Below are positions 4,330-25,929 of a stretch of DNA of 25,929 bases, in pieces. The stretch comes from a virus. The DNA is taken from the IMG/VR virus record IMGVR_UViG_3300049432_000018, positions 1-25,929 of that record; one strand, 5' to 3'. Each line of letters starts with the position of its first letter. The first letter of the stretch is position 1. The notes under the pieces are model-generated. The model was not told where the DNA came from. It made no database searches and saw only the letters and a program-made list of their open reading frames with translations. Made by a program: the position numbers and the translations under genes.

Positions 4330-4752
4330 TTAGAAAGGCCGCTCGCCGTCCAGCGACCGAGCTGAGAACTCCGGCTGATCGGCACAGTCGCCGCAGAGCG
4401 CCCGCATCGTTCCCCAGCGCACCTTGATCCGCTCGCCGCAGCCGTAGCACTTGAGCTCGATCTGATGTCCCTCCGGCGCCGCCAGCGCCGGCAATTCCCA
4501 CCGCGTTACGGGCTCCGGTCGGTTGCTCTTCGCCACTGCCTTGGCTGCGTCTTCGCTGCAAGGCGTCAGGGCGTAGATGCTCGACCCACCGCAGAACTGG
4601 GTGGCCACGATCTCGCCGTCGTCGCCCGGCACGTCCACCCGGAGCATCGCCACGCCATACTGCTCGGCCTGGCAGACCCGCCCACCGAGGCGGCGATGGC
4701 CGAGCAGCTCGACGATCGCCCAGCCCTCGTAGGGCTTCTCTGACTCGCTCAA
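4330..4752 (-). CDS. Phage hypothetical protein with C-terminal CxxC zinc finger
   Basis: 140 aa starting from a TTG at 4752: GGAGGG lies a few bases upstream, and TTG overlaps the TGA of the zinc-finger gene as TTGA. The first two thirds (KPYEGWAIVELLGHRRLGG...GVAMLRVDVPGD) is a compact beta domain often seen in phage replication regions. It includes FCGGSSIYALTPCSE. The last part holds CYGCG...CGDC, a zinc-ribbon pair about 17 residues apart. The family is known to me only as a hypothetical phage protein. It lies between the metallopeptidase-like gene and the topoisomerase-type finger. Coding is secure and function unknown. Confidence 0.7.
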   Translation of the reverse strand: MSESEKPYEGWAIVELLGHRRLGGRVCQAEQYGVAMLRVDVPGDDGEIVATQFCGGSSIYALTPCSEDAAKAVAKSNRPEPVTRWELPALAAPEGHQIELKCYGCGERIKVRWGTMRALCGDCADQPEFSARSLDGERPF

Positions 4753-11492: not shown

Positions 11493-11713
11493 GCGGGGTC
11501 TCCTGTCGGCAGGAAGAGCCGCCGTAGTCGGGCGTCAAGCCGACGCACCTGCTCGACCACGCCGTTCTCATCGTCCTCCTGGGCGTCGAAGTAAATCTTG
11601 ATGTCCCAGCGATAGACGCCCTTCGCGTCGCGGCTCAGCTCGATGCTTGAGCGAGACTCGCGGGCGACTTCGAGCAGCGTGCCCTCGATGGGCGGGTTGG
11701 TGTTGTCGATCAC
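11489..11713 (-). CDS. Hypothetical early phage protein
   Basis: 74 aa from GTG 11713, whose codon overlaps the TGA of the Ala-rich gene as GTGA; seven upstream codons in the same frame are rejected on that ground. The sequence has a beta section (GVYRWDIKIYFDAQEDDENG) and then a helix rich in Arg and Leu (VVEQVRRLDARLRRLFLP). It may be a small helix-beta protein that partners the 571-aa protein just downstream. No family recognised. Confidence 0.55.
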   Translation of the reverse strand: MIDNTNPPIEGTLLEVARESRSSIELSRDAKGVYRWDIKIYFDAQEDDENGVVEQVRRLDARLRRLFLPTGDPA

Positions 11714-12519
11714 GCCGCCACCTCGCTTCCGCACTCGATCATTCGGTCCAGCAAGTCGAACGCCGATTCCTGAAGCCGGGCTACCGTCTCTTTGAGGGCG
11801 CCGAGAGCCGCGTCGTAAGCCGCGCCGAGAGCCGCGTCGTAAGCCGCGCCGAGAGCCGCGCCGAGAGCCGCGTCGAGAGCCGCGCCGAGAGCCGCGTCGC
11901 GAGCCGCGTCGTAAGCCGCGCCGAGAGCCGCGCCGAGAGCCGCGCCGCGAGCCGCGTCGAGAGCCGCGTCGAGAGCCGCGCCGAGAGCCGCGCCGAGAGC
12001 CGCGTCGTAAGCCGCGCCGAGAGCCGCGTCGTAAGCCGCGCCGAGAGCCGCGTCGCGAGCCGCGTCGCGAGCCGCGCCGGCCATAGTCCTTGCTCGGTTC
12101 AGCGCTCCCTGAGCGTGCGCCGCAGACGCAGAGTCAACGATCTCCGGCAGCGCCTCTAGTGCAGCCGCTTCCTCAACCAGGCCAGCGCGACGCAGCCAGG
12201 TCGGTGCGCTCACTCGAGAGGCCCAGTCGGTGGCCATCCAGGCACGGCGGTTACTGATCGCTGCAGATCCTGCCGTCCCGATCAACCGGGGGATGTAAAT
12301 CTTTAGGCGCTGGCGCGTCTTGTCGTCCAGCGCGTCATTCCAGGACCGCCCGAACGCCGCGAGCGTCGGGTCGACGCAACGCGGACTGGCAGACCACCGC
12401 TCGCCAGCGATGTGGCTGATGGCCTCGAGGAGGCAAGCGCCCTCGGCAAGCGACTTGTGCCCGCCGGCGAGCAGCACCAGAGCATCCAGGTCAATGGTTC
12501 GAGTCTTGTTGTCAATCAC
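11710..12519 (-). CDS. Phage/bacterial protein with N-terminal conserved domain and Ala-rich tetrapeptide repeats
   Basis: 269 aa from GTG 12519, which follows GGAG by seven bases and overlaps the upstream TGA as GTGA. Residues ~1-130 (LDALVLLAGGHKSLAEGACLLEAISHIAGE, then CVDPTLAAFGRSWNDAL, then LKIYIPRLIGTAG) are a conserved domain I know from many bacterial and phage genomes with no agreed function. Residues ~146-239 are 23 tandem tetrapeptides of the form [G/D]-A-A-[R/L/Y], encoded by a 12-bp DNA repeat, followed by KETVARLQESAFDLLDRMIEC. The array may form a long Ala-rich helix. The repeat number is likely variable, and 12-bp steps would keep the frame. Confidence 0.6.
   Translation of the reverse strand: MIDNKTRTIDLDALVLLAGGHKSLAEGACLLEAISHIAGERWSASPRCVDPTLAAFGRSWNDALDDKTRQRLKIYIPRLIGTAGSAAISNRRAWMATDWASRVSAPTWLRRAGLVEEAAALEALPEIVDSASAAHAQGALNRARTMAGAARDAARDAALGAAYDAALGAAYDAALGAALGAALDAALDAARGAALGAALGAAYDAARDAALGAALDAALGAALGAAYDAALGAAYDAALGALKETVARLQESAFDLLDRMIECGSEVAA
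11803..12078. repeat. 12-bp in-frame tandem repeat, 23 units
   Basis: The plus-strand unit is close to GCCGCGYCGNRA, with variants such as GCCGCGCCGAGA, GCCGCGTCGTAA and GCCGCGTCGCGA. It repeats end to end for 276 bp inside the Ala-rich gene. Differences sit mostly in the third and fourth codon of each unit and swap Gly/Asp and Arg/Leu/Tyr. The long complementary ORF on the plus strand is a by-product. Confidence 0.9.
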
Positions 12520-12656
12520 TCGATCACTCCTATGAGCACAAGGAAGCCGCAGAACATCAGAAACAGCGCCAGCGCCATCCACAGGTCCCGCCGCGAGATC
12601 GTCCAGTCGTGGCCCTCGAAGAGCGGCCTGGCCTGGGCACGACGCCGGCGGATCAT
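12516..12656 (-). CDS. 46-aa membrane micro-protein
   Basis: ATG at 12656 gives a basic N-terminus (MIRRRRAQARPLF...), a Trp-containing stretch, and then one hydrophobic span (WMALALFLMFCGFLVLIGVIE). The positive N-terminus suggests that side faces the cytoplasm. Its ATG overlaps the stop of the preceding gene as ATGA, and its TGA overlaps the next GTG as GTGA. This is too short for standard gene callers, but the exact couplings support it. Confidence 0.65.
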   Translation of the reverse strand: MIRRRRAQARPLFEGHDWTISRRDLWMALALFLMFCGFLVLIGVIE

Positions 12657-18650: not shown

Positions 18651-20419
18651 CAGTAGGCCAGGACGCCCTTGGGCGTCCCCGAAGAGCCGACCTTGCCCAG
18701 CGTGGCGTCGCCGAGCACGAAGAACCCCTGGCCCGAGATGTAGATCTGGTAACCGATTCCGACGCTGGACAGCCGAAACACGGTGTCCCAGGTGCCGACG
18801 CCGATGGTGTGCTCGATGCCCTCTATAAACGATTCCTGCTCGATCATGGCCCCGCCGCCGGGCGGTCGGAAGCGGACCGTCACGCGGTCGCTGAGCGCCC
18901 GGCCCAGCGCCTGGGGCCAGAGTGTTGCGGGCTGGGCGGTGCCGTCGAGCGCCAGGCTGACGATGCGCGGGTGGTAATCCTTGTACAGCGCCAGCTCGAA
19001 GGCAGCCTTATCCGAGCACTCATTGTCGGTATCGTTCAGCAGCCCGTCGTGCGAGAGCGAGCGGCTGAAGTAGGTTGCCGCGCTGGTCGCGTCGGTGGCG
19101 CTGCGCTGCTCGCTGCCTTCGGTGGCGCGCTGGCAAAGGATCTCGTTGACGATCTGCTGCTCGCCCCCCCCGAAGACGACGCCGGCGTAGAGGATCTCAG
19201 ACTCCCCAAATGTCCCTTGAGACGTCGACAGGTAGGCCGCGTGGCGGTCGATAAACCGGACGTTGCCAATGGAGTTCATGAACAGCCGTCCACTCTCGGT
19301 TTCGGCCACCTTGAACAGGTGATCGAGCGCGCCGACCTTGTCGAGCGTGATCGCGTCCAGCATCGAGACGCCCGTCGCCAGCGTCCGCTGGCTGGCTGGC
19401 CAGCCGATCGCGTCCAGGACGGCGCCGACGCGCTGATCCGACCGCTGGGCCGGGAAGTCGCCGCTGACGAGCTTGTTGGCCAGGACCTTGAAGCCGTCGG
19501 TGGCCGAGACGTGCAGGATCGCGTCGGCCTGGTCCGGGTAGTCCTGGACCGGATCGTCCAGGTAGCCGTAGAAAACCGGATAGGTGACCGCGGCATAGAC
19601 CGCCTGGCAGCGGACCCGTCGCATCGGCTTGACGTTCGGCCAGTACGGCGCGTTGCGGTAGCTGATGCTGGCGTGGGCAGTCCCGCTCCAATGGCAGCCG
19701 GCCTGGCTGCCATCGCAGTAGGACCCGAGCGAGCTGGCCTGCTCGAGCTGCCAGCCGTCGGTGTGGAAGGTGAAGATCCCACTCGCGCCGGTGGTCAGGA
19801 AGCGCAGGCGCGCGTGGTCCGCGGTAGCTGGCGCGACTCCTGAAACGGAGAACTGCGCGTGGCTGGTGCTGTTGAGGGTAACCGTGGCGTTGGTCGAGGA
19901 GATCAGCCCGCCGCCCGCGGTTTGCCAGTCGATCCGGACCTGCATCGAGACCGAGCCGGCCGACGCCAGTTTGGCGAAAAGACTGAAGATGTAGTTCAGG
20001 CCTGGTACAACCGGCATCAGCCCGACCGTCCCGCCGTAGCTAATCCCGGAGCTCGCGACGTTGGTGGTCACCACCGACGCGCCGAAGCCGCCGAACTGGC
20101 TCGCAGCGGCCAGCTGCGAGATAGTAGCGGCGAGCCCGGAGTAGTCGGTCAGGGCGAGCTCGAAGCTCGGATTGGTGACCAGGTTCCCCAGAAGCCCTTC
20201 GAACCACCAGTCGAACCGCCGGTCGCGATTGTCCAGGTCGAGCGTGCAGGTGCCCGCCTGATCCTGAGCCGTCTCGATCTGGCGGCCGCGCTTGGTCGTG
20301 GCGCCGCGCACGAAGGGGGTGATGTCGGTCCAGGTCGTGGTCGCCGAGCTGGGATCGTTGGTGAAATCCATTTCCCAGATCCAGCTGGGGATGACCGTGA
20401 CGGTGTCGACGGGCGGCAT
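18650..20419 (-). CDS. Tail-tip/minor tail protein with inserted carbohydrate-binding-like domain
   Basis: 589 aa. The first 75 residues (WTDITPFVRGATTKRGRQIE, then GTCTLDLDNRDRRFDWWF) are the well-known beginning of a minor tail protein family that interacts with the distal tail. Residues ~78-235 (NLVTNPSFE..., FSLFAKLASAGSVSMQVRI, and so on) look like a CBM-type beta sandwich. The rest returns to the tail-protein pattern (MRRVRCQAVYAAVTYPVFYGYLDD, and a later FKVAETESGRLFMN). The ATG at 20419 directly follows the tape measure TAG (TAGATG). It probably forms the baseplate or tip and may bind sugars on the cell wall. Confidence 0.75.
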   Translation of the reverse strand: MPPVDTVTVIPSWIWEMDFTNDPSSATTTWTDITPFVRGATTKRGRQIETAQDQAGTCTLDLDNRDRRFDWWFEGLLGNLVTNPSFELALTDYSGLAATISQLAAASQFGGFGASVVTTNVASSGISYGGTVGLMPVVPGLNYIFSLFAKLASAGSVSMQVRIDWQTAGGGLISSTNATVTLNSTSHAQFSVSGVAPATADHARLRFLTTGASGIFTFHTDGWQLEQASSLGSYCDGSQAGCHWSGTAHASISYRNAPYWPNVKPMRRVRCQAVYAAVTYPVFYGYLDDPVQDYPDQADAILHVSATDGFKVLANKLVSGDFPAQRSDQRVGAVLDAIGWPASQRTLATGVSMLDAITLDKVGALDHLFKVAETESGRLFMNSIGNVRFIDRHAAYLSTSQGTFGESEILYAGVVFGGGEQQIVNEILCQRATEGSEQRSATDATSAATYFSRSLSHDGLLNDTDNECSDKAAFELALYKDYHPRIVSLALDGTAQPATLWPQALGRALSDRVTVRFRPPGGGAMIEQESFIEGIEHTIGVGTWDTVFRLSSVGIGYQIYISGQGFFVLGDATLGKVGSSGTPKGVLAY

Positions 20420-23400
20420 CTAGCGTTCCCACGCCAGCTTGCCGTTACGCCGCCGCTTGCGGGCTAGGCCAGCCTCGAAGGCGTCAACCGCCTGGTCCAT
20501 CGTGCCGACGTAGTTCGGCATGTTAAGCGTGACGTTGATGGTGTCCCCACCACCGGATCCACTAGAGCGAGCACTCTGCCCAACCGTCAAGACCCGCTCG
20601 CCCTGCTCGAGCCAGTGCAGGCCGGTGTAGGCCGCGACGCCGCCCTGAGCGTGGACGTCGAAGCCAGCGCCGCCCAGGCTGTCGAGCTCGTTGCGGTAGC
20701 TCCTGACCGCGTCGGCGGCATTGTCGATGTGCCCCTTGAGCGAATCCCAGGCGCCACCCTGCTCGTCGACCTTGCCGATATCCAGGCCGCCGATGGCTTC
20801 CTGAAACAGCTTGACCGCCTCGGTGGAGAGGTCAATCGCCGGCTTGAGAGCGTCGTACTTCTTCGCCATCTGGCTGACCGCGTCGGTGGCCTCGCCGGTC
20901 TGCTGCGTGGCCGTACCAGTGGCAGTGGCGGTGGCGTCGATCGCCGGCACGGCCTTCTGATAGTTCAGGGCAGCCTGGAGGAAGTTGAGCGCCGTCGTCT
21001 GGGTGTCGTTGCCCGCCACGGTTTGGGCGACGCGCAAAGCATCGAACTGCGGACCTGCCTCGGACGCCTGGTTGACGACCCGCTCCATCGCCTGGTCGAT
21101 GTCGATCAGGCCAGCGCTGTAGTCGTCCCAGGGCTTCGTGGCGAGTCCCGTCGCGCGTGCCAGGTCGACCAGCTTGAACTGCAAGCCCGACAGCGCAATC
21201 TGTCCGCCAGCAACCTGCCTCTCGATGGGGCCAAGGACGCTGCCGAACTCGGCCATCGCCTCCTTGGTGTTCCGCATGGGGTCGGCCTGGCCCTGCATGA
21301 CCTCGGTCAGCCTAGCTTGCTGGTCGGCGAAGACCTTCGCCCAGTCGGTGCCCTGCTGCGTAGCGCTGGTCAGCATGGCCTGGCCCTGGCCGGCCGCACC
21401 GGCCGCAAGGTTCAGGTTGCCGTACTCGGCGATGATCTGGCGTAAGCCCGTGACGTAACGCGAGCCGTCGCCCTCGGAGACCTCCGCGAGCTTTCCCCAC
21501 TTCTGGACAAGCGCCTCTCCCGCCAGCCCCTCGGCGACCAGTTGCTTGTACAGCGCGGCGTGGTCAGCCGCGAACTTCTGGGCGCTGAATCTCGGGTCCA
21601 TCAGCTGCTCGACGCTGAAGCCCGCCCCCTGCCCGCCGGCCCGGTTGTGTTGGAACAGGCCGACCGAGTCTTCACCGACCGTGTTGTGTGCTCGCGGATT
21701 CAAGCCTGACTCAGCCTTCGCCAGGGCCAGGAGATGCTCTGGTCGAATGCCGTTGGCAACCGCGGCTTCCACGACGGCGCGGACTACGTCGGTGATCGTG
21801 CCGCCGTTCTTGGTCCAGCCAAGGAGGTAGCCCTCCACCGACATGCGGCCGAGATACTCGAATTCCTCAGACGGCGACGAGATGCCGAGTGCGAGTTTCG
21901 CCGCGGCAATCCAATCCCCCGCCAGCTTCGCCAGCAGATTGCTGACTGCCTCGCCGCCGCGGCTGAGCGCGCCGGTCACGCCATCGATGATCGCCTGGCC
22001 GATCTGCCCGGCCGAGACCGCGAGCGAGTTAAGGGATGCCGTCGCCCACTCTGAGATCGAGTTGAGAATCCCGGCCAGGGCCCCGGGCAGCTTGGGCAGG
22101 ACCTCGGTCCCGACCCAGTCGACGAAGGCCTTGCCCCACTCGAGCAGCTTGCTGACGATCGCGGGCAAGGCGTCGGTGAGGATCCAGGCGCCCAGCGCGA
22201 TCTCGAGCTTGACCATCTCAGCGATCAGCAGCGGGATCCGCGGAGCAACCCATTCCACGAAGGCTATGCCCCACTTCAGCAGGTTGCCTGCGAGTGAGGG
22301 CAGCGCCACCGTCAGAAGCCACGAGCCGAGCTGAATCAGGACCTGGCCGAGCTCGCCCAGCAGCGGCGGGATCAGCGGCGCAACCCAGTCAACGAAGGCG
22401 CCGGCCCACTGTCCCAGGTTCTCCACGATGGTTGGCAGTGCCACGGTGTAGAGAAAGGTGGCGACCGAGATCGAGATCTTCGTCAACTCTTGGAGCATCG
22501 GCGGGATCATCGGGCCGATCCAGTTGACGAAGGCCGCCGCCCAGGTGATCAGCACATCTGAGATTCGCAGCCCGACGTTCAGCAACAGGTCGCCGAAGTT
22601 GGCGAATGCGCCAGCCACGTCCCCGCTGAGCGCCTGGTCGACGATCACCGCGAGCCCCGTGAATGCGTCCTGCGCGATCGTCCAGAGATCATTGATTCCG
22701 GTCGCCAGTAGGCCGATGGCGTTCACGACGGGGTCTATGGAGTCGGATGCCGACCAGTCACCCTGGAAGACCTGGATAACCGTCTGCCAGCCATCGGTCA
22801 GGATGGTGATCAGCGGCGCCAGCACATCGCCCAAGCCGGACAGCTGGCCCATGAATCCGTCGATCGCGGCGGGCAGCTCGTCGGCGAACGCCTGGACGGC
22901 CGGTAGCGCAGCCGTGGCCAGCGATGACAGGCCCTTGACCAGCGGCCCGCCGATCGCCTCCGCGACGTTCCCGATAGCCGTCTGGAGAATGACCATCTGC
23001 CCGCCGAAGGTCTGACCAGCCGCCTTGGCAGCGCCGCCAAACTCCTTTTCCAGCTCAGCCAGGATGACCTTTTGTGCGCCCATCATGTCGCCCGATTCCT
23101 GGAGCGTCTTGATCTGCTCTTTCTGCTCGTCGGTGAACGACACGCCCACCCGGGACAGCGCGGTTATCCCCTTGATGGGGTCGTTCAGCGCCTTGCCGAG
23201 CTGGACCGAGCTGGACTTGAGATCCTGACCGAGCGCCTGGCTCATGTTCAGGACCGTCTCGGTGGCGTCCGGGAACACATCCTTCCCGATGTTCGTGAAG
23301 GTCAGCAGCAGATTCTCGGCGCTCTGGATCGCTTCGTCTTCGAACGGGGTGAGCTTCGAGAGTGAGCTAGCGTAGCCAGAGATGTCGTCGGCGCTCAGAC

Positions 23401-23710
23401 CAGCCGCTTCGCCGGTCGATTTGAGCACCGCGGCGGTCTGGCTGGCGACCTGCTCAGCTTCGATGGCCGGCCCGATCAGCCCCTCGATCGCGCCCTTGGC
23501 AACGTCGAAGGTTTGGGTGATCCCGAAGATGCCAAGGCCCAGCTCCTTGAAACCGCCGAGCAGGCCACCGACGCCCTTCTGGACGCCGCCCAGCACGCCG
23601 CTGAAGTTGTCTTTACCGTTGATCTCGATTGCGATCGCTAAATCTGCGATGGCGCTACCCTCGGGTTTTCTTCCGGGTCCGATCGTTGTCAGCGGCGGCG
23701 TCCTGCTCAA
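20420..23710 (-). CDS. Tape measure protein with ruler repeats and a lytic transglycosylase-like domain
   Basis: About 1,096 aa, the longest gene here. It has N-terminal helical Gly/Ala-rich stretches, then four 45-residue hydrophobic repeats (22543 down to ~22075) led by WAxAFVxWV and followed by IPxLL and LPxxxxxLL. A soluble-lytic-transglycosylase-like domain comes next, with EHLLALAKAESGLNPRAH (Glu ~667) and SVGLFQ, and then a helical tail with the G-G-V-A-A-Y-T-G motif and a basic end. The length of this protein sets tail length, and the lytic domain digests peptidoglycan during injection. The start is uncertain: TTG 23710 is used, but ATC 23650, after GAGGGTAG, fits the conserved ADLAIAIEING beginning. 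Confidence 0.85.
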   Translation of the reverse strand: MSRTPPLTTIGPGRKPEGSAIADLAIAIEINGKDNFSGVLGGVQKGVGGLLGGFKELGLGIFGITQTFDVAKGAIEGLIGPAIEAEQVASQTAAVLKSTGEAAGLSADDISGYASSLSKLTPFEDEAIQSAENLLLTFTNIGKDVFPDATETVLNMSQALGQDLKSSSVQLGKALNDPIKGITALSRVGVSFTDEQKEQIKTLQESGDMMGAQKVILAELEKEFGGAAKAAGQTFGGQMVILQTAIGNVAEAIGGPLVKGLSSLATAALPAVQAFADELPAAIDGFMGQLSGLGDVLAPLITILTDGWQTVIQVFQGDWSASDSIDPVVNAIGLLATGINDLWTIAQDAFTGLAVIVDQALSGDVAGAFANFGDLLLNVGLRISDVLITWAAAFVNWIGPMIPPMLQELTKISISVATFLYTVALPTIVENLGQWAGAFVDWVAPLIPPLLGELGQVLIQLGSWLLTVALPSLAGNLLKWGIAFVEWVAPRIPLLIAEMVKLEIALGAWILTDALPAIVSKLLEWGKAFVDWVGTEVLPKLPGALAGILNSISEWATASLNSLAVSAGQIGQAIIDGVTGALSRGGEAVSNLLAKLAGDWIAAAKLALGISSPSEEFEYLGRMSVEGYLLGWTKNGGTITDVVRAVVEAAVANGIRPEHLLALAKAESGLNPRAHNTVGEDSVGLFQHNRAGGQGAGFSVEQLMDPRFSAQKFAADHAALYKQLVAEGLAGEALVQKWGKLAEVSEGDGSRYVTGLRQIIAEYGNLNLAAGAAGQGQAMLTSATQQGTDWAKVFADQQARLTEVMQGQADPMRNTKEAMAEFGSVLGPIERQVAGGQIALSGLQFKLVDLARATGLATKPWDDYSAGLIDIDQAMERVVNQASEAGPQFDALRVAQTVAGNDTQTTALNFLQAALNYQKAVPAIDATATATGTATQQTGEATDAVSQMAKKYDALKPAIDLSTEAVKLFQEAIGGLDIGKVDEQGGAWDSLKGHIDNAADAVRSYRNELDSLGGAGFDVHAQGGVAAYTGLHWLEQGERVLTVGQSARSSGSGGGDTINVTLNMPNYVGTMDQAVDAFEAGLARKRRRNGKLAWER

Positions 23711-24292
23711 CCTTCATCAAGTCGAGCTCAAGGTCTACTTCGGGGTCGTCCAGGTCGATCTCATGGGGTCGGCAGAACCAGCGGCGGGCAATCAGGCGTC
23801 GGAGGTGCCAGTCGGGGACGGCAGCGCGTTTGCCGGTGAGACTTCGGTAGATTGCCCTGAGCTCCGCGCTATGCTCTCGGTCACTTTTTTTTGGTCGACT
23901 TCGATGTTGGCCATGATTGCCCGCAGCACGTCGTTGCTGATCAGCTCCCAGAACTCATCGAGCTGTGGCGACGGCAGGGGGAGATCGGTTTCAGGGTCGA
24001 TCCAGGGTCCATCTGGCGTGCCGTCGTCGAAGTGGACGCGGTGGGCCAGCACCATCCGCTTGAGTGCCCAGAGGATCCGCTGCTCGTCGGTCATGTCGTC
24101 GGGGAGCTTGCCGACGCCGCGCTTGTTCGGGTTGAAGCGCATCAGGATCTGATGGCCAGGGTAGAGGTCGCCCATGTCTACCCAGTGCTCGCGCCGCAAA
24201 GGATTCGGCCGCTCCGGTGGGGGAGCGTCCGTGCCGTTGGTTCTCTCGAGGACCCGGACGCCATGGGGCATCCAGTCGCCATGTTCCTGCAC
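23655..24292 (-). CDS. Tail assembly chaperone G-T fusion made by -1 frameshift
   Basis: Produced when ribosomes slip -1 at A-AAA-AAA. The product keeps the first 136 residues of G, then continues for 76 residues in the -1 frame to TAG at 23657-23655. The extra part (SAELRAIYRSLTGKRA, PDWHLRRLIARRWFC, EIDLDDPEVDLELDLMKVEQD) is rich in charged residues and has the look of the T domain. In lambda and relatives, the G and G-T proteins guide tape measure folding at a fixed ratio. The frame is confirmed by hand translation of both strands of the overlap. Confidence 0.75.
23792..24292 (-). CDS. Tail assembly chaperone G
   Basis: 166 aa from GTG 24292, with GGAGG five bases upstream. The protein has an acidic middle (LPDDMTDEQRILWALKRMVLAHRVHFDDGTPDGPW) and a helical segment (FWELISNDVLRAIMANIEVDQKK). 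It ends in a short Ser/Pro-rich stretch after the slippery site (QSTEVSPANALPSPTGTSDA). It lies between the tail tube gene and the tape measure, the fixed position of the G gene in siphophages. The frameshift site at 23891-23885 makes the longer G-T product. Confidence 0.75.
   Translation of the reverse strand: MQEHGDWMPHGVRVLERTNGTDAPPPERPNPLRREHWVDMGDLYPGHQILMRFNPNKRGVGKLPDDMTDEQRILWALKRMVLAHRVHFDDGTPDGPWIDPETDLPLPSPQLDEFWELISNDVLRAIMANIEVDQKKVTESIARSSGQSTEVSPANALPSPTGTSDA
23885..23891 (-). promoter_or_regulatory. -1 ribosomal frameshift heptamer
   Basis: On the minus strand A-AAA-AAA lies at 23891-23885 and is followed by GTG in frame 0. The codons are CAA AAA AAA GTG, and the -1 reading continues as AGT GAC CGA. 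A run of eight A residues gives an efficient slip. No strong stem-loop is seen just after it. Confidence 0.8.
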
Positions 24293-24312
24293 AAAGCCTC
24301 CAGGCTATTCGT

Positions 24313-24334: not shown

Positions 24335-24365
24335 GCCCCCGCAAGTGGTGGAACACTTCGGGGGC
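24335..24365. repeat. Hairpin in the leader of the inserted HNH gene
   Basis: GCCCCCG-C-AAGTG pairs with CACTT-CGGGGGC (12 bp, one bulged C) around a GTGGAA loop. It lies between the possible promoter and the TAGGAG ribosome site of the HNH gene. Such leader stems can block translation or terminate readthrough on either strand. No T-run follows, so it is not a clear terminator. Confidence 0.65.
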
Positions 24366-24389: not shown

Positions 24390-24995
24390 ATGCCCCATCA
24401 GTATAGCCCCGCGTTCGTCGCCCGATTCTGGTCCCGAGTGGACAAGTCGGGCGACTGCTGGCTCTGGACCGGAGCCTGTACCGCTGCTGGCTACGGCAGC
24501 CTGACCTTTAACGGCGAGCGACTGTACGCCCATCATGTCGCCTGGGAGCTTGCGGGGATGCCGCGCTCCAGGCGCGCCCGCGTGCTGCATACCTGCGATC
24601 TGCCGGCGTGCCTGCGGAATGACGAGGTCGGCACCTATGACGTTGACGGGCTGAGCCTCCCCAGGCGCGGCCACCTCTTCGGTGGCACCCAGGCGAACAA
24701 CATCCACGACGCTGTCACCAAGCGACGGATGCACTACGGCGATGCACACGGATCGAAGACTCATCCCGAAAGCACTCCCCGCGGCGATCAGCACGCCTGG
24801 CGGCGACGCCCCGAGCTGGTCAGGCGCGGCGAAGATCAGCCAATGCACAAGGTCACCGAGTCCGATGTCCGCGAGATGCGCCGCATGCGCGACGCCGGCG
24901 CGCTGCTCACCGAGATCGGGGCGCGCTTCCCTGATGTCCAGATCCCAGCCATCTCGCGGATTTGCAATCGGGTTCGGTGGAAACATATTGAGTAA
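24390..24995 (+). CDS. Inserted HNH homing-type endonuclease with a split motif
   Basis: 201 aa on the plus strand, opposite all surrounding genes. The ATG at 24390 follows TAGGAG. Residues ~13-60 (FWSRVDKSGDCWLWTGACT..YGSLTF, AHHVAWELAGMP) and VLHTCDLPAC...HLFGGTQANN match free-standing HNH_3 homing endonucleases. In relatives the motif reads C-x-N-P-x-H-L directly after the CD-x-P-x-C. Here about 15 extra residues (from RNDEVGTYDVDG) separate Cys74 from His95. The second half holds a helical DNA-binding section (TESDVREMRRMRDAGALLTEIGARF). It could be a mobile gene inserted between tail tube and chaperone G. Its stop lies next to the tail tube stop. Activity is doubtful because of the split. 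Confidence 0.75.
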   Translation: MPHQYSPAFVARFWSRVDKSGDCWLWTGACTAAGYGSLTFNGERLYAHHVAWELAGMPRSRRARVLHTCDLPACLRNDEVGTYDVDGLSLPRRGHLFGGTQANNIHDAVTKRRMHYGDAHGSKTHPESTPRGDQHAWRRRPELVRRGEDQPMHKVTESDVREMRRMRDAGALLTEIGARFPDVQIPAISRICNRVRWKHIE

Positions 24996-25929
24996 TTAGA
25001 ATGCGGTCAATCGATTACAAGTGCACGCTATGACGATGCCACTTGCTAGCGTGCTATCATACACGTAATCTAACGGGAATCCATACGCCCTAACCGCACC
25101 GAACGCTTCCTTGTTTCGGTCCACGTCGCCCCAGTAGCCGGGGATATCGATTCGGATAGTCGGGAAGATCGCCGCTTCGATGGCGACCGGGCCGATGAAC
25201 TCCAGGCGAAGAAGCTTCGGCGTGCCGGCATTCCAGTTCGTGAGCTCGGTTGCGGCAGCCGTCGACTCGGCCAGGAACGTCAGGTCGGAGCTCAGGTCAA
25301 GCTCGCCAGGAACCGTGCCGATCGCCGCCTGGGTGTTCCCCGCCGCGTAGATCCTGGTCATGTTGTTGTTGAGCTTGATCGACCAGTCGGCGAGCAGGTC
25401 GCTGATTTGTGTGGTTCCTGGAGTACCACCTAATGCGTCCAGGAAGAATTTACATTGCCAGCCTTCCAGGAACGGCGGGTTGCGGGCGGGCAGCGCGGCG
25501 GTGAGCGTCGTGAACGCCGTATCGACGTCGTTGCCGTACAGGTCGAAGGTTCCCGAGTTGTCGCCGTCGACGCTGCCGTCGATCGACAGGCCGGCACCGC
25601 GGATACCCAGCCCGCGATAGACTCGCGACCCGTCGTTGCGCTCAAGCGTCATAGACGTCAGGGACGCGGTCGGTTTGTAGGTGTGGGTGCGCGAGAGCGT
25701 GCCGCCGCCCGGGGTTGTAATCGCCCCGTCGCCGAACGTGATCGCGAGCCATTCCAGCCACTCATTGGGATGGGCGGGCAGCTTGACCTGGCCCTCGACC
25801 ATCGTAGGGCCCTGGGTGACCGCCATCTGGTTGTCGCGTCGGCCGGTCTTGAAGCGGTGGGTCCGGTTCGACCGCTTCTTGTTCAGGGACACCGTCTCCA
25901 GGTAGGCGACCCTCGTGGCAGCCACTCCC
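24996..25929 (-). CDS. Major tail tube protein, 5' end cut by the window
   Basis: At least 310 residues. The visible start (VAATRVAYLETVSLNKKRS) looks internal: tail tube proteins usually have about 15-40 residues before such a stretch and the frame remains open to the window edge, so the gene is partial. Later features include RTHRFKTGRRDNQ, a long beta-rich section (TFGDGAITTPGGGTLSRTHTY, LTSMTLERNDGSRVYRGLGI), a possible Ig-like addition, and TLASGIVIACTCNRLTAF at the end. It forms the inner tube of a non-contractile tail and lies two genes before the chaperone region. The stop is TAA adjacent to the HNH stop. Confidence 0.75.
   Translation of the reverse strand, partial: GVAATRVAYLETVSLNKKRSNRTHRFKTGRRDNQMAVTQGPTMVEGQVKLPAHPNEWLEWLAITFGDGAITTPGGGTLSRTHTYKPTASLTSMTLERNDGSRVYRGLGIRGAGLSIDGSVDGDNSGTFDLYGNDVDTAFTTLTAALPARNPPFLEGWQCKFFLDALGGTPGTTQISDLLADWSIKLNNNMTRIYAAGNTQAAIGTVPGELDLSSDLTFLAESTAAATELTNWNAGTPKLLRLEFIGPVAIEAAIFPTIRIDIPGYWGDVDRNKEAFGAVRAYGFPLDYVYDSTLASGIVIACTCNRLTAF

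Follow-up and report, generated by a model that had tools for sequence, protein, structure and literature searches.

The minus strand of the window, by which we mean the whole stretch of DNA analysed here (a linear virus record, present as a single contig of 25,929 bases with 65% G+C), carries two overlapping reading frames, G and T, that most probably form a siphophage tail assembly chaperone gene with a programmed −1 ribosomal frameshift (probability about 0.82). This proposal, made earlier in a sequence-only reading as a lambda-like G/G-T frameshift, fits the position of the pair, its overlapping −1 frames, their codon usage, a run of eight As (A8) made of rare codons, and the layout found in related loci. 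The frameshift is an ordinary new example of a trick used by many long-tailed phages, and its conservation in tail assembly genes has reportedly long been known, from work of Xu, Hendrix and Duda in 2004.

The G/T locus and its reading frames

G and T lie between the tail tube gene, on their upstream side, and the tape measure gene, which follows them directly, in a region with the following features:

24996..25925, minus strand: major tail (tube) protein (Pfam Phage_tube_2, 4.8e-10)
24390..24995, plus strand: HNH endonuclease ORF, antisense (PHROG HNH endonuclease, 7.8e-16)
24297..24301, minus strand: GGAGG resembling a Shine-Dalgarno site, 4 nt upstream of the GTG of G, read from the sequence
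23792..24292, minus strand: G-like tail assembly chaperone ORF (putative), frame 0, 166 aa, GTG start
23885..23892, minus strand: A8 run, holding the in-register heptamer A_AAA_AAA at 23891-23885
23795..23884, minus strand: overlap of 29 codons, apparently dual-coding, between the G tail and the T start
23655..23885, minus strand: T extension, −1 frame, 76 codons plus TAG, with coding-like codon usage
20420..23710, minus strand: tape measure protein ORF (Pfam TMP_2, 2e-11; PHROG tape measure, 2.7e-32)

The A8 run lies in the context GAC CAA AAA AAA GTG, where CAA AAA AAA are codons 134-136 of G. Frame 0 continues to a stop at 23794-23792, the −1 frame stays open for 76 codons past the slip, up to a TAG at 23657-23655, and the +1 frame stops at once after the run; the coordinates given in the sequence-only reading are thus all correct. 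Within the permissible overlap (23954-23795, 160 bases) the A_AAA_AAA at 23891-23885 is the sole in-register heptamer of the form XXXYYYZ, and a −1 slip at this site is predicted to produce a G-T fusion of 136 + 76 = 212 aa.

The slippery site of lambda is G_GGA_AAG. The window has A_AAA_AAA instead, and it also differs from lambda by the antisense HNH gene between the tail tube gene and G, and by G and T sequences that have no detectable similarity to any family. The architecture is otherwise alike, since in lambda, as described in the available part of PMC5009743, the order is also tail tube, G, T and tape measure, with T in the −1 frame and slippage near the end of G. The location between tail tube and tape measure proposed for the pair therefore holds as an order of genes on the minus strand (tail tube, antisense HNH, G/T, tape measure), with the amendment that the HNH ORF at 24390-24995 separates the tail tube gene from G. 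A related locus, L010, has no such gap, its tail-tube ORF stopping at 4335 and its G starting directly adjacent at 4332. Between the HNH ORF and the G start of the window there is also a strong hairpin (around 24335-24365, about −23 kcal/mol when 56 nt are folded, on either strand), with no T run after it.

In order to judge the coding character of each frame, we used a codon model built from six other genes of the window, with scores repeated leaving out each gene in turn. Before the slip, G scores +35 bits in frame 0, and the other two frames score −93 and −114 (computed with the training genes themselves included). The preferred reading frame then changes from 0 to −1 over the A-run and the overlap, and after these to that of the tape measure. 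The length of the open −1 frame is not significant by itself, as 189 of 604 76-codon −1-frame windows taken from real genes of the same DNA are also open. The codon score of the T segment (+4.3 bits), in contrast, is reached by 0/604 −1-frame and 0/604 +1-frame windows, which overlap and so are not independent, and true-frame windows score at or below this value in 10 of 604 cases; T is thus a low-scoring but coding-like segment. In the 29-codon overlap, the T-frame score is reached by 5/658 −1-frame windows and the G-frame score by 2/658 +1-frame windows, and such high scores in both frames are expected of dual coding, not of an error in the A-run.

The run itself occurs once in the window and is present in three of 100 dinucleotide shuffles. 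It is composed of three minority synonymous codons (AAA is used for 10 of 94 Lys and CAA for 19 of 167 Gln, with a product of 0.0013). The six other genes contain three Lys-Lys pairs, each of them written AAG AAG. The codon content, the dual-coding overlap, the rare-codon run, the late first start codon of T and the place of the pair beside the tape measure are less easily explained by chance than the open frame. Codon usage, the rare-codon run and its register illustrate how a frameshift can be supported for proteins that have no detectable homologue.

Related tape-measure loci

Relatives of G and T were found neither by tblastn in phage records nor by a pattern search of virus contigs, and neither protein had a Pfam or PHROGs match up to an E-value of 10. 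An hhalign comparison of single sequences at one locus placed T no better than its own shuffles, and the G score against L068 (15.4, with shuffles up to 7.5) is too weak to use, and the single-sequence structure models are of low confidence (pLDDT 43 for G and 63 for T), too poor to support a fold search. Siphophage G and T sequences diverge widely, and likeness to a known chaperone family is not required of a G/G-T gene. The term chaperone consequently rests on position and architecture, G and T having no sequence relative in the collections searched, and it is on this ground that an otherwise unrecognisable ORF pair can now be annotated as tail assembly chaperones. The tail tube protein was also searched against virus contigs and phage records, with nothing found; weak matches only were found later, at L010, L047 and L008.

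Since G and T had no detectable relatives, the tape measure was used as query. The protein itself retrieved two virus loci and no genome locus, and alignment A1, made from its conserved part, gave virus loci, taken as the best 80 of 529, and 74 genome loci. With L002-L006, these 80 and 74 loci make a set of 159, which was not dereplicated and to which overlap thresholds set by hand were applied.

Among the matches listed, 125 of the 159 loci have a −1 overlapping ORF pair that ends at the tape-measure start. The +1 geometry is present in 71 of the same 159 listed loci, and an overlap by itself therefore discriminates poorly. An in-register XXXYYYZ heptamer is found in 80 of the 125 −1 pairs among the matches listed (45 are without), and of the XXXYYYZ heptamers in these overlaps, 96 stand in the correct register and 24 and 29 in the other two. 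The commonest in-register heptamers among these matches are A_AAA_AAA (14) and A_AAA_AAC (13), and G_GGA_AAC occurs seven times. Runs of nine As are uninformative on register, because they are guaranteed to contain an in-register heptamer; of the runs of exactly six As among the matches listed, 12 begin in the correct register and one in each of the others. When the G proteins of ten of the 14 A_AAA_AAA loci were compared with the family collections, two matched the PHROG 'tail assembly chaperone', and nine of the ten had no Pfam match, the other having a weak match, below the cut-off, to a Pfam chaperone family.

Individual loci show the same arrangement with other details. In L070 and L074, both from IMG/VR, an A8 run stands in the same codon register and the −1 extension ends at the tape-measure start, but the G+C content is 35% and 46%, respectively, and G and T are not recognisably related to those of the window. 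In Gordonia phage Bock, genes 18/19 precede a related tape measure (39.9% identity, covering 23% of the query) and carry the annotation of joined tail assembly chaperones; they differ in having the site G_GGA_AAA at the G stop and a T of 166 codons. Phages of Paenibacillus larvae belong to a low-G+C host group, in contrast to the 65% G+C of the window. The slippery heptamer AAAAAAA has been tentatively assigned to the 3' part of their upstream tail assembly gene, in Arcticfreeze and 12 others (available part of PMC6256562). The earlier description of the site in the window as A_AAA_AAA and not of lambda type is therefore right, but the novelty it implied is not, as this heptamer is the commonest in-register one in the related loci listed and its occurrence in tail assembly genes is already in print (PMC6256562, in the part available). 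What the window adds to this known site type is an A8 example in a phage of 65% G+C.

Proposed slippage mechanism and alternative explanations

In the mechanism that we favour, most ribosomes would translate G to its 166 aa, and in a minority both lysyl-tRNAs, placed on AAA AAA, would slip back one base at A_AAA_AAA, so that these ribosomes would read on in the −1 frame and produce the 212-aa G-T. The lambda tape measure is bound by both G and G-T, and the tail tube protein by T (available part of PMC5009743); by analogy, G and G-T of the window may coat the tape measure protein, with T recruiting the tail-tube protein.

The sequence-only reading had also noted the lack of a clear stimulatory stem, and the folding results bear this out: the 90 nt after A8 fold no better than shuffles (z +1.19), and no stem was found in the 60 nt from +5 either (z 0.05). 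Around A8 we found no obvious upstream Shine-Dalgarno stimulator, and an Rfam search gave nothing at gathering scores. Among the matches listed, 11 of the 14 A_AAA_AAA relatives also have no structure beyond z −2, so a missing hairpin is not unusual for this kind of site. For E. coli, the part of PMC5009743 available ranks A_AAA_AAA below A_AAA_AAG in shiftiness. Even so, an unstimulated A_AAA_AAA could give a low, lambda-like yield, as cassettes are reported in the available part of PMC3711429 to shift at 10% (seven As, from another gene) and at 6% and 7% (two tail chaperones).

The serious rival is slippage of RNA polymerase at A8, by which a share of the transcripts would have nine As and be read straight from G into T, yielding an identical protein; protein mass cannot separate the two mechanisms, because a transcript with nine As would also give QKKSD at the junction. 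Programmed transcriptional realignment often takes place at homopolymers of at least eight (PMC3711429, in the part available), and both the failure to find a ribosomal stimulator near A8 and the runs of 8 or 9 in nine of the 14 A_AAA_AAA relatives among the matches listed are in keeping with this. We nevertheless consider it unlikely, since the remaining A-run relatives among these matches have runs of 6 or 7, the positional equivalents A_AAA_AAC and G_GGA_AAC cannot easily slip in this way, and polymerase slippage would not need the 12:1:1 register bias of the six-A runs in the matches listed. Nor did a limited literature search, in the portions of text that it covered, find a tail chaperone assigned to such a mechanism. 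That polymerase slippage, alone or in addition to ribosomal slippage, sets the G-T ratio is likewise improbable; it would mean a change of mechanism in an otherwise ribosomal-frameshifting family.

The two remaining explanations dispense with slippage altogether, and we give little credence to either. The length of the A-run could be an assembly or read error, the true gene being one continuous ORF or having no shift, and it is true that homopolymers are error-prone and that the run is known from a single virus contig for which no close relative was found. However, the overlap looks coding in both frames, a result expected neither of a purely fused gene nor of G alone, and related loci as a rule have the split layout (the 125 of 159 in the matches listed), which makes an error very improbable. 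T could also be a separate gene, coupled to G and translated without fusion from a non-standard start (CTG, ATC or ATT), and suitably placed codons do exist, with CTG 23795 and ATT 23792 at the G stop and ATC 23852 inside the overlap. This appears the most improbable of all, because T has no ATG, GTG or TTG until the TTG/ATG at 23720/23717, about 20 codons before its stop, and because a separate gene leaves unexplained the rare-codon A8 in the permitted overlap and the coding-like character of the T codons that precede the G stop.

The tape measure start and other observations in the window

The conserved N-terminus of the tape measure begins near an ATC at 23650-23648 (minus strand), where there is no ATG, GTG or TTG. 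This codon follows GAGGG, at a distance of 4 bases from the T stop, and seven relatives have an ATG at its position; in the relatives, the tape measure start was taken as the first ATG, GTG or TTG of the ORF. The window's tape measure may start either at a rare AUC or at TTG 23710, or else the sequence contains an error at this point. The ORF that follows the tape measure downstream contains a homopolymer of eight Cs (19164-19171), and in another minus-strand ORF (11710-12582) AARDAALGAAYDAALGAA-like repeats fill the middle over a long stretch.
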